From: Pseudooceanicola atlanticus
GTDB taxonomy: Bacteria > Pseudomonadota > Alphaproteobacteria > Rhodobacterales > Rhodobacteraceae
Reading direction: 5' to 3'
NCBI RefSeq assembly: GCF_000768315.1
Contig: NZ_AQQX01000001.1
Location: forward strand, 496,001-560,000
Length of the DNA: 64,000 nt
Positions 17,243 through 57,978 of the stretch are shown here, one piece after another. Numbering within the stretch: position 1 is the first letter of the stretch; the number at the start of each line of letters is the position of its first letter. The notes under the pieces are model-generated. The model saw nothing but the letters and a program-made list of their open reading frames with translations. It was not told where the DNA came from and ran no database searches. Position numbers and translations under genes: made by a program.

Positions 17243-18139
17243 ATGCGGCACAGCTATACCCCAACCGTTGCCGAGCTTGAGGCCTTCTGCGCCACCGCCC
17301 GCGCCGGCACCACCATTCAGGCCGCCCGCAGCCTTGGCCTGACGCAAAGCGCGGTCAGCCGGTCGATCACCGGGCTCGAGGCGCGGTTGGGGGTCGCGCT
17401 CTTCGTGCGGGCGCGGCAGCGGATGACCCTGTCGGATGCCGGGCGCACCTTCCTGCGCGAGGCCGAGGCGCTGCTGGACAGGCTCAACGACGCGGCGATG
17501 TCGGTCATGGCCTTCGGCGGTCAGGCCCAGGTTCTGCGCATGGCCGTCCTGCCGACCTTTGCGCGGCTCTGGCTAATTCCCCGGTTGCGGGCCTTCCAGG
17601 CGACGATGCCGGGGCTGTCGATCGACATGGCCGCGCGCCTGTCGCCCGTGGATTTCGAGGCAGAGCCCTTCGACCTGGCGATCCAGCGCACCCATCACCG
17701 GGCCTCCGGCGCGCATCACCTGCATCTTCTGGACGAGGAACTGGCCATCGTCGCCGCCCCGTCCCTGATCGGCCGCGCACCCCTATCCCGTGACGAGGTG
17801 CTGCGCCTGCCGCTCCTGCAGCAATCGACCCGCCCAACGCTCTGGCCCGATTGGTGCCGCGCCATGGGTCTGGACCCGCGGGGCGCGCTGCGCGGGGCCC
17901 GGTTCGATCATTTCGACATGGTGCTGGACGCGGCCATCGGGGGGCTGGGCGTTGCGCTCGTTCCCGAGATCCTGGCCCGCCCCGCGCTGGCCCGCGGCGA
18001 CCTGACCCTCGCCGCACCGGGGGATGTGCGCACGGGTCAGGCCTACACGCTGATCTACCCCGAACGCAGCGCCGAACTGCCCCATTTCGCCCGCTTCCGC
18101 GACTGGCTCCGTGCCGAGATCGAGGGGATCTGGGCGTGA
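17243..18139 (+). CDS. LysR family transcriptional regulator beside gcdH
   Basis: 298-aa regulator. The winged helix-turn-helix spans about 8-67 (ARSLGLTQSAVSRSITGLEARLG is the recognition region, here truncated); the rest is the effector-binding domain. Divergent pairing with gcdH suggests control of glutaryl-CoA metabolism, as for other LysR regulators next to gcdH. The domain arrangement resembles the GcvA group. Effector unknown. Confidence 0.88.
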   Translation: MRHSYTPTVAELEAFCATARAGTTIQAARSLGLTQSAVSRSITGLEARLGVALFVRARQRMTLSDAGRTFLREAEALLDRLNDAAMSVMAFGGQAQVLRMAVLPTFARLWLIPRLRAFQATMPGLSIDMAARLSPVDFEAEPFDLAIQRTHHRASGAHHLHLLDEELAIVAAPSLIGRAPLSRDEVLRLPLLQQSTRPTLWPDWCRAMGLDPRGALRGARFDHFDMVLDAAIGGLGVALVPEILARPALARGDLTLAAPGDVRTGQAYTLIYPERSAELPHFARFRDWLRAEIEGIWA

Positions 18140-18291
18140 GGGAGAGGGGGGCGTTTCGGCCGTCTCTCCGGTCTGCACTTTTGCGCGCCCGCTCGGGTCG
18201 TTCGCTGCCCTTCGCGACTTGCGGGACAGCGCGTGTCAGGTGTGTCCCCTCAAGGGGGATCGTCCGGTATCGCCAAATATACCGTCCCCGC

Positions 18292-18332
18292 ACCGACGTA
18301 ATACCGACGTGATACCGACGTCGTACCGACCT
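18292..18332 (+). repeat. 11-bp direct repeat array upstream of rppH (4 units)
   Basis: Units ACCGACGT at 18292, 18303 and 18314 and ACCGACCT at 18325 are each exactly 11 bp apart, with variable 3-nt linkers (AAT, GAT, CGT). The last unit ends 51 nt before the rppH start. A perfect inverted pair CGGTAT/ATACCG (18265-18270, 18279-18284) lies just upstream. A second four-unit array stands upstream of cobO at 46914-46954. One helical turn per unit suggests a protein bound on one face of the DNA. Confidence 0.85.
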
Positions 18333-18383: not shown

Positions 18384-18866
18384 ATGACCCCCGAAGAGAT
18401 CGCCAAACTGCCCTATCGCCCCTGTGTCGGCGTCATGCTTGCCAACCAGGACGGCCACGTCTTCGTCGGCCAGCGCATCGACAATCCCGGACCCGCCTGG
18501 CAGATGCCCCAGGGCGGTGTCGATCCGGGCGAAGCCCCCCGCGAGGCCGCGCTCCGCGAGTTGTGGGAAGAAACCGGCGTGACCGCAGACAAGGTGGAAA
18601 TCGTCGCGGAAACAGAGGGTTGGGTTCCCTATGACCTGCCGCATGACCTTGTGCCCAAGCTGTGGAAGGGGCGGTTTCGCGGGCAGGAACAGAAATGGTT
18701 CCTCATGCGTTTCCAAGGCAGTGACGGCGACGTCAACATCGCCACCGACCACCCGGAATTCTCGCAATGGCAATGGCTTGCGCCGGATCAGCTGGTCGAC
18801 AACATCGTTCCGTTCAAGCGCGACGTCTACCGCGCCGTGCTGGCGGAGCTGGGAGGAAAGATATGA
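18384..18866 (+). CDS. rppH: RNA 5'-pyrophosphohydrolase RppH
   Basis: 160-aa Nudix hydrolase that removes pyrophosphate from 5'-triphosphate mRNA ends and so triggers decay. YRPCVGVML and [12 protein letters not shown] open the domain, and the Nudix box ends [23 protein letters not shown] near the C-terminus matches RppH/IalA proteins. GGAAGGAG precedes the ATG. The stop overlaps the ATG of the next gene, so the two are coupled. The upstream 11-bp array is a candidate control element. Confidence 0.92.
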
Positions 18867-46227: not shown

Positions 46228-46836
46228 CTAGAATTCCACGCCAATCTGGGCCTTGATGCCGGAGCGGAAGGGGTGCTTGACCAGCTCCATCTCGGTGACG
46301 AGGTCCGCGATCTCGATCAGCTCGTCCTTGGCGTTGCGACCGGTCAGGACGACATGGGTCATCTCGGGCTTTTCGGTGGTCAGGAATTCCACGACCTCGT
46401 TGATGTCGAGGTAGTCGTAGCGCAGGGCGATATTGACCTCGTCCAGAAGCACCATCTTGTTGGAGGGATCGCGGATCAGCTCTTTCGCCTTTTCCCAGGC
46501 GGCCTGGGCCATTTCGGTGTCGCGGGTGCGGTCCTGGGTTTCCCAGGTGAAGCCCTCGCCCATCGTGTGGAACGAGCAAATGTCTGAAAAGCGGGACATA
46601 ATCAGGTCGCGCTCCCCGGTGGACATGCCGCCCTTGATGAACTGGACCACGGCGCATTGCATGTCATGGGCGATACATCGGAAGATCATCCCGAAGGCGG
46701 CAGAGCTTTTGCCCTTGCCCTTGCCGGTATGCACGATGACCAGGCCTTTCTGGTCGGTCTTGGTGGCCATGATCCGGTCGCGAGCGGCCTTCTTCTTGGC
46801 CATCTTCTGGGCGTGGCGGTCGGGGTCTTGGGTCAT
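46228..46836 (-). CDS. cobO: Cob(I)yrinic acid a,c-diamide adenosyltransferase
   Basis: 202-aa CobA/CobO/BtuR-type enzyme that transfers the adenosyl group from ATP to Co(I). A Lys/Arg-rich leader precedes the P-loop HTGKGKGKSSAAFG (about 36-49). VLLDEVNIALRYDYL and VVLTGRNA complete the nucleotide site. Stands apart from the other cob genes (next ones start at 50 kb). A four-unit 11-bp repeat array lies 77 nt upstream and faces it. Confidence 0.93.
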   Translation of the reverse strand: MTQDPDRHAQKMAKKKAARDRIMATKTDQKGLVIVHTGKGKGKSSAAFGMIFRCIAHDMQCAVVQFIKGGMSTGERDLIMSRFSDICSFHTMGEGFTWETQDRTRDTEMAQAAWEKAKELIRDPSNKMVLLDEVNIALRYDYLDINEVVEFLTTEKPEMTHVVLTGRNAKDELIEIADLVTEMELVKHPFRSGIKAQIGVEF

Positions 46837-47249
46837 CTGGGATCTCCGTTCTGGGTGGCGACTCTGGGGGAGCGGACGGGGGATGACAAGCCCGGGTTAC
46901 CCCACCGAACGGCACGTCGGTATTACGTCGGTATCCGGTCGGTTTTGCGTCGGTGCGAAAACGGTGCCGGGGGCCGGGCCGATTGCCGCAACAAGTGGCA
47001 GCGCGCAGGGTGATTGCGGTGATCCCGACCCCGCGCCGCAACGTTCCGGCGGATTGGACTTGCGGGCAAGGGTCCCCGGCCGTATCCCCGACGGGCCGAG
47101 AAGATTTCGAGGCCGGTTGGTTACTCCGGCCCTCTGCCCCACAGAGATCCAGTCGCACCTGTCTGCGAACCCACGGCATCGACCCAAACCTGGTCGGTGC
47201 CGGGGATGGTGCGACCTCCCCGTCCGACCGCAATCCGGAGAAGACGGAA
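46837..47249. other. 413-nt intergenic region between cobO and DUF2798 gene
   Basis: No convincing gene in either strand; the open frames through it are composition artefacts. It contains the 11-bp repeat array (46914-46954). No cobalamin riboswitch elements are seen here. Confidence 0.6.
46914..46954 (-). repeat. 11-bp direct repeat array upstream of cobO (4 units)
   Basis: On the plus strand units start at 46914, 46925, 46936 and 46947 (ACGTCGGT, ACGTCGGT, CGGTCGGT, GCGTCGGT), exactly 11 bp apart; on the minus strand these read ACCGACNN facing cobO. Same core, unit number, period and gene-relative orientation as the array before rppH. The nearest unit is 77 nt from the cobO start. Confidence 0.82.
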
Positions 47250-57522: not shown

Positions 57523-57573
57523 ATCTGTATCTCCTTGGCCGTCATCCCCGACGGCTGGTTACCATGTTACGCA

Positions 57574-57720
57574 CGGCTGGTCTCCTGGCTTGCGGGTCAT
57601 CGCGCCTTGTGCCGCCTTCCCGGTGTCCCAGTGGCGTATGGCACTGCGCTCTCCGCTTACAGTCGCGGGGGCGGCTGCGGCTAGGGCCCCGATATGGGTC
57701 GTCCCGTTCCGCATTCCCAA
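57574..57720 (-). ncRNA. Cobalamin riboswitch
   Basis: On the minus strand the conserved elements occur in order: GCCGCCCCCGCGACTGTAAG at 57673-57654, the GCCACTG-GGACACCGGGAAGG region, GATGACCCGCAAGCC and AGGAGACCAGCC. The B12 box GCCACTG and the terminal GCCAGGAGACC are intact. Just below it, GCCGTC/GACGGC (57538-57543, 57550-57555) forms a hairpin against the cbtB ribosome site AAGGAG, suggesting translational control. Governs cbtB-cbtA and the His-rich gene. Confidence 0.92.
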
Positions 57721-57978
57721 TTCATCCTCGGACGCTTTGCGCCCTTGCGAGGAACCATGCCGTTTCGTTCTGCCGTGCAGAGGGCCACAGGGTCAAGGCC
57801 CAATGCGGCGCGCGGGATCCGATTTGCGGCTGGCTGTGGCGGAAAGTATGCGGCGGAAAGGCGCAATATCTTGGGGATAAGTCGTCTGACGGCCCCATAT
57901 CCAGCGTGTGAGCGTTGACTCGTTGGCTTTGGCCCCTTCATGCTGAGGCGATACCGGAATCACGATCAGGCCTGCAAC

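Follow-up and report, generated by a model that had tools for sequence, protein, structure and literature searches.

The window analysed here is a 64,000-nucleotide stretch of the genome of Pseudooceanicola atlanticus (hereafter G000) and contains two arrays of short direct repeats. Array 1 (18281..18330, plus strand) opens with a degenerate unit, ACCGTC, at 18281 and continues with ACCGAC at 18292, 18303, 18314, and 18325; the ACCGAC units are spaced by exactly 11 bp, with the degenerate unit in phase. Read directly from 18292, the letters are ACCGACGTAAT ACCGACGTGAT ACCGACGTCGT ACCGACCT, the last of these units ending at 18332, and the four-unit, 11-bp direct repeat noted in the preliminary description of this DNA (four ACCGAC units within 18292-18330) is real. 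It precedes a gene for an rppH-like NUDIX hydrolase of 160 aa (18384..18866, plus strand), the name rppH being that of the preliminary description and the profile support being to NUDIX (PF00293, E = 6.9e-30); the distance of 51 nt given there is correct, with the last unit ending at 18332 and the ATG at 18384. The gene upstream of the array (17243..18139, plus strand), which by its look we take to be of the LysR type, stops 152 nt short of the first exact unit. An inverted pair, CGGTAT at 18265-18270 and ATACCG at 18279-18284 (18265..18284, no strand assigned; read directly), had been described as a neighbor of the array: both halves are present, but the ATACCG half belongs to the degenerate unit at 18281. 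In three named Pseudooceanicola relatives, rppH has no array (P. batsensis has one unit in the same surroundings), and the site is therefore not conserved at this gene.

Array 2 (46916..46965, minus strand) likewise begins with a degenerate unit, ACCGTT, at 46965, followed by units starting at 46954, 46943, 46932, and 46921. It lies 79 nt from the start codon of cobO (46228..46836, minus strand, 202 aa; PF02572, E = 6.9e-65), and its 3′ end reads GTGCCGTTCGGTG, a GTTCGG-type end that recurs in 16 of the 61 arrays read in G000. The three-unit pattern, with up to 3 mismatches allowed, has 6 matches in the window, all in two places, compared with a mean of 0.11 and a maximum of 2 in 100 shuffled sequences, and when ACCGAC pairs in the window were scanned at periods of 8 to 15, only period 11 appeared. 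Neither array, on either strand, showed an excess of RNA folding (fold z-scores of 0.02 to 0.84) or matched an Rfam family, and an RNA element was rejected on these grounds. The same window contains, at 57558-57769 on the minus strand, a cobalamin riboswitch (RF00174).

The genome-wide search suggested in the preliminary description yielded 121 exact three-unit matches in G000 (4.94 Mb in 47 contigs) and 0 when the pattern was reversed as a control; once 2 mismatches were tolerated, the numbers were 190 and 2. The abundance of arrays in the window and in the genome is far beyond chance, and the array at rppH is therefore not a local operator specific to that gene, dozens of others lying between genes elsewhere in the genome. 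G000 has at least 61 distinct arrays; of the 61 read, 46 have four units, 11 have three, and 4 have five if the last unit is allowed to end in T or A. The linkers are mostly GTGAT, GCAAT, GTAAT, and GCGAT, with at least 30 different 5-base linkers among 176. A fixed core and period combined with variable linkers argue for an array of binding sites, as originally proposed, and against a slipped-strand microsatellite, which we rejected on these counts and on the preponderance of four-unit arrays. Perfect tandem ATACCTGTGCG repeats of 11 bp, microsatellite-like and unlike the arrays, were seen at G129 C36:710-758 (L575). The single-contig genome G289 (3.6 Mb) carries about 70 arrays at up to 1 mismatch, or one per 51 kb. 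Among a smaller set of its matches, 13 on the plus strand stand in a row, but the fuller set is mixed in strand (50 and 52) and spaced nearly at random (coefficient of variation of 0.84 versus 0.98 ± 0.11, for 100 of the 102 matches), and a replichore-polar signal was accordingly discarded.

The arrays are distributed sporadically among relatives. Of the 22 genus genomes, 5 have exact ACCGAC arrays, G000 included (121, 29, 85, 29, and 1 matches), as do 20 of the 295 family genomes, two of the 20 having a single match. Upstream of lpd, inspected by eye in the 21 genus genomes with a true lpd match, arrays occur in G000, G018, and G021 (two units in the last), a degenerate array occurs in G016, and single units occur in G005, G010, and G013; the array-bearing G004 has none there. 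A different dispersed repeat, AAATACTCCGGGG...GGGGGCAGCGCCCC, precedes lpd (L229-L248) in many genomes of the genus, mostly array-less ones; repeats of this type sometimes adjoin an array and are also found upstream of rppH (L001, L002). When 511 kb of sequence belonging to 80 named relatives was scanned de novo, one four-unit array was recovered at period 11, in an uncultured Roseovarius (L043), alongside 1, 2, 1, and 0 four-unit matches at periods 8, 9, 10, and 12 to 15, respectively. We therefore set aside the idea that arrays with other cores are hidden across all genera. Several periods were scanned in the window and in these 511 kb, and for the other relatives the patterns were set to period 11.

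Arrays of period 11 but with a different core, namely CCATACG, GCAGCC(AYA), and GGTGTAC, do occur in other genera. The backward control column of the family search revealed three such genomes, G088 and G166 with the core CCATACG-N4 and G231 with GCAGCC(AYA). A pattern of three CCAYA-N6 units matched in 27 of 295 genomes, with three or more matches in 10 of them: G088 (153), G166 (72), G151 (36), G070 (28), G126 (16), G225 (10), G095 (8), G156 (8), G137 (3), and G305 (3). Exact ACCGAC arrays are missing from all 10 of these genomes, as are CCAYA matches from all 20 ACCGAC genomes. The other 17 of the 27 matching genomes have one or two CCAYA three-unit matches, a number like that of stray matches in the backward control. 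The control of the CCAYA search in turn exposed G207, the genome of dialect D, whose GTACACC-N4 units read GGTGTAC in the common orientation. In our own alignment, with dialect D flipped, TAC is common to dialects A, B, and D, the window's own genome belonging to dialect A.

Lineage-specific spelling around a shared core is also a property of DNA uptake sequences (DUS), the dialects of which likewise retain a core according to PMC3630211, so that a genome-wide motif can evidently vary by lineage in this manner. The arrays could by analogy be self-recognition tags for DNA uptake, to which their dialects with the shared TAC and their sporadic occurrence would be suited. We consider this very unlikely: in contrast to the thousands of DUS per genome given in the same source, G289 has about 70 arrays in 3.6 Mb, and rows of several units are unnecessary for uptake. 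The arrays thus resemble the DUS of Neisseriaceae as lineage dialects of a genome-wide motif but differ in copy number and in array form.

To compare gene boundaries, we used 288 arrays from 36 genomes (61 from G000, 39 from G289, and often few from the others, so that many genomes are represented by a small part of their arrays and the sampling is uneven). A boundary was regarded as shared when a flanking gene within 420 nt of the array had at least 45% identity over 60 residues. Without dialect D, 111 pairs of arrays share boundary and orientation, 13 are inverted, and 7 lie on the other side of the gene; 36 of the 111 connect different dialects. The 25 arrays of G207, when read as ACACC, give 16 inverted pairs, 1 in the same orientation, and 1 on the other side. 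Reading the core from the opposite strand brings 16 of the 17 pairs that can be compared into agreement, which indicates that the G207 arrays keep the orientation; the flip was made after the inverted pairs had been seen. With dialect D flipped, 127 pairs have the same orientation and 14 are inverted, and across dialects the figures are 52 and 6. Array pairs are not independent, and the test was therefore done by locus: orientation is uniform at 36 of the 44 loci, a value reached in none of 20,000 trials with random orientation (mean 16.2, largest 30). By a rough estimate from 1,500 to 2,500 gaps per genome, chance would account for about 15 to 25 shared positions among the 37,957 pairs. The recognition sequence thus differs between lineages, in at least four dialects, and places and orientation are kept. 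The chorismate mutase gene (PF01817 and NCBIfam) is preceded by an array in five dialect A genomes and one dialect C genome, and between the end of the last full unit and the start codon there are 25 or 29 nt. Before a gene that we take to be leuD and at the end of a presumed liv-type ABC ATPase gene, arrays of dialects A and B alternate, and arrays of dialects A, C, and D are found at the end of a presumed gltD.

These comparisons also bear on the possibility that the arrays are a dispersed repeat to which no dedicated protein corresponds, one that moves or expands in the manner of REP or MITE. The many copies and the sporadic occurrence would be explained, but place and orientation are the same across genera with different cores, and the lpd upstream regions of the 21 genus genomes offer no clean empty site to the eye. 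The flank profile of the 61 G000 arrays contains no conserved sequence beyond the array and its next unit, and the characteristic traits of REP and MITE, a palindrome or terminal inverted repeats and a conserved body, are lacking in this profile and in the fold z-scores of the window arrays. A dispersed repeat is, in our judgment, quite unlikely, and we retain the reading of the arrays as sites for a protein.

With respect to genes, the arrays are not scattered at random through coding DNA: 16 of 244 lie inside a called ORF and 8 of 244 at an edge. Among the 220 arrays with both neighbors called, 91 are codirectional with both of them and 46 opposed to both, convergent gene ends enclose 53, and divergent starts enclose the other 30; this count leaves out G207 and genomes with fewer than 5 arrays and rests on gene calls from our own codon scoring. 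The 3′ side of the array is the one nearer to a gene in 130 of the 220. In G000, convergent gaps account for 11 of 55 arrays and for 10 of 54 other gaps of the same loci, and divergent gaps are rarer with arrays (8 of 55 versus 17 of 54), the distribution being otherwise similar. Because every type of intergenic gap, the convergent one among them, can hold an array, the arrays as a class are not promoter sites, although the excess of codirectional (91) over opposed (46) arrays leaves room for a role linked to transcription.

The DNA flanking the arrays is phased with the units. In dialects A, B, and D, A/T content on the 3′ side rises and falls with a period of 11 to 11.5 over three to four turns, and in each of these dialects its power at 11 bp exceeds that of all 1,000 shifted controls; to the right of dialect A arrays, both A runs and T runs are phased and CCGG is unphased. 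On the 5′ side, A/T phasing is weaker, and in dialect D it is absent (above 632 of 1,000 shifted controls). TTAA stands at one of a few fixed offsets in 86 of 209 dialect A arrays, to the right mainly at 15 (14 times), 25-28 (21), and 36-37 (11) and to the left at 16-18 (8), 22-24 (21), and 27-28 (32). GTTAAC-like sites at a few fixed offsets on both sides, not tied to gene starts, were observed among the arrays from 14 dialect A genomes. In all dialects but D, phased TTAA shows no excess at gene starts (left side, p = 0.41), for which reason we rejected a promoter element, and on the right side it is commoner at gene ends (p = 0.016).

Rows of direct repeats are a known kind of site, as ArcA, CarH, and CenR illustrate, and the preliminary description had attributed the array at rppH to an OmpR/PhoB-type response regulator. 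In its general form, this attribution would make the arrays operators of an ArcA-like regulator that is conserved in relatives but changed in specificity. Repeats about one turn apart are indeed a feature of OmpR/PhoB operators, and ArcA sites, 92 of 158 of which comprise three to five repeats, usually spaced by 11 bp, match the arrays in unit spacing, unit number, and genome-wide occurrence (PMC3798270). In contrast to ArcA sites, the arrays have a core that is nearly invariant per genome and specific to the lineage, they are absent from most relatives, and they ignore promoters, 53 of 220 lying between convergent ends. The CenR site of Rhodobacter sphaeroides, as given in PMC9275681, is TGA-N8-TGA. 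G000 has 13 PF00486 matches and the array-less G013 has ten; four of the G000 proteins are without a close counterpart in G013, two of which look like response regulators and two (L573 and L574) like regulator-hydrolase fusions. Neither of the two accessory response regulators tracks the arrays in the 22 genus genomes. The first is present in 10 of the 22, including the array-less G005, G007, G012, and G017, and was not found, at E = 1e-30, in the array-bearing G004 and G021. The second is 99% to 100% identical in the array-less G001, G005, and G010 and 76% identical in G004, and G018 and G021 have paralogue-level matches alone (45% to 47%). The attribution to the OmpR/PhoB type is thus unsupported. 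Distribution speaks to accessory regulators and not to conserved ones, and we regard such operators as rather unlikely.

Tandem 11-bp repeats are also bound by CarH, a tetramer of the MerR type whose operators consist of three or four such repeats with one DNA-binding domain each (PMC8156234), and the arrays, with their three to five units, could be operators of a protein of this kind or of some other direct-repeat binder that escaped our attention. By eye, however, the units ATACCGACGTG and CCATACGNNNN do not fit the CarH consensus nAnnTnnACAn, and no MerR-type gene was noticed beside an array among the neighbors scanned. The CarH operators known to us sit at single promoters, unlike the genome-wide arrays. 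We consider this reading unlikely.

The best candidate to bind the arrays is, judging from gene content and position, a BrnA-type ribbon-helix-helix (RHH) protein, the one DNA-binding protein noticed among the genes shared beside arrays. In G000, it is a protein of 145 aa (C12:439180-439617) that matches PF14384 (BrnA_antitoxin; E = 8e-11, residues 48-87) and has no NCBIfam match. Close members were collected by tblastn and profile search over the loci analysed, and 7 of the 37 genomes sampled have the gene next to an array, namely G000, G140, G172, G289, and G146 of dialect A and G126 and G070 of dialect B. All seven loci had been fetched for their arrays, so that closeness to an array follows in part from how they were chosen; the array is upstream of the gene in seven of seven, at 55 to 99 nt from the start by our own choice of start codons. 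Most of the 37 genomes were partly sampled, and in 30 of them, including G004 (18 arrays) and G207 (25), no sampled array lies beside an RHH gene. At the matching place in the array-less G013, there is neither RHH gene nor array, and tblastn over 140 kb finds no RHH gene; the shared flanking genes are 210 bp apart there, whereas in G000 one ends at 436359 and the other starts at 439982, the other G000 genes between them being missing as well. The N-terminal strand of RHH proteins reads bases. It is KVTLYLD or KVSLYLD in the five dialect A proteins and KVTIRLD and KVTASFD in the two of dialect B, which differ although their core is shared. The RHH alignment had no match to solved structures at E values up to 1.

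The candidate differs from the BrnA of BrnTA systems in having extra N- and C-terminal parts and, as the presumed binder, dozens of sites instead of one operator, and by eye no BrnT gene was noticed among the called ORFs of the seven neighborhoods. A more distant parallel is ParR-parC, where, according to PMC5016525, RHH dimers occupy one repeat each and bend and wrap the DNA; unlike that system, with its single plasmid locus and 10-bp repeats, the arrays have three to five units and lie at dozens of chromosomal places.

From these features, we propose that each array is a copy of an oriented, genome-wide nucleoprotein element. A row of three to five units, one per helical turn (11 bp), would align identical subunits on one face of the DNA, and as A/T-rich stretches continue in about the same phase for some three turns on the 3′ side, which is expected of such a complex, the complex may bend or wrap that DNA. 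The binder would most likely be a BrnA-family RHH protein with no adjacent BrnT toxin gene and with such an array ahead of its own gene. Since the starts of genes, their ends, and convergent gaps all carry copies, the element is probably a chromosome-structuring or transcription-boundary site rather than an ordinary promoter operator, and an array close to a start codon, such as the one 51 nt before rppH, may also repress or activate. Taken together (an oriented genome-wide element with a BrnA-type RHH binder, a structuring or boundary role, lineage dialects, and kept places), this reading is one that we hold with evenly balanced confidence. We entertain more tentatively, as a possibility that falls somewhat short of that, the fuller scenario in which a toxin-less BrnA-type antitoxin has turned into a genome-wide chromosome protein in scattered Rhodobacteraceae, binding oriented arrays of three to five units, in numbers from tens up to about a hundred, at conserved boundaries, with one-sided bending or wrapping and a recognition that switched at least three times at all sites together, about nine in ten relatives being array-less for the kinds searched.

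Dozens of sites respelled in concert, with place and direction kept, amount to a natural experiment in the co-evolution of a protein and its sites. In a family of ecological importance, they further provide a testable candidate for a factor that organizes the chromosome or sets boundaries, and they may represent an antitoxin recruited for a genome-wide task. Among the papers listed in literature searches of a library without most subscription papers, no title or abstract opening describes these arrays.

Mobile elements were also considered as a source of the arrays. Neither one G000 array nor the RHH protein matched the plasmid collection searched, and a plasmid-borne element was rejected on this basis. 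A phage origin was rejected as well: 80 of 120 viral stretches were read and, by eye, are mostly other tandem repeats, L304 alone among them having linkers like those of the bacterial arrays. The 4 viral loci that encode relatives of the RHH protein have no period-11 row upstream of them. Many of the IMG/VR contigs L252-L331 contain 11-bp ACCGAC tandem repeats with other linkers, several of them located just before a start-like AAGAATG and resembling iterons or coding repeats.
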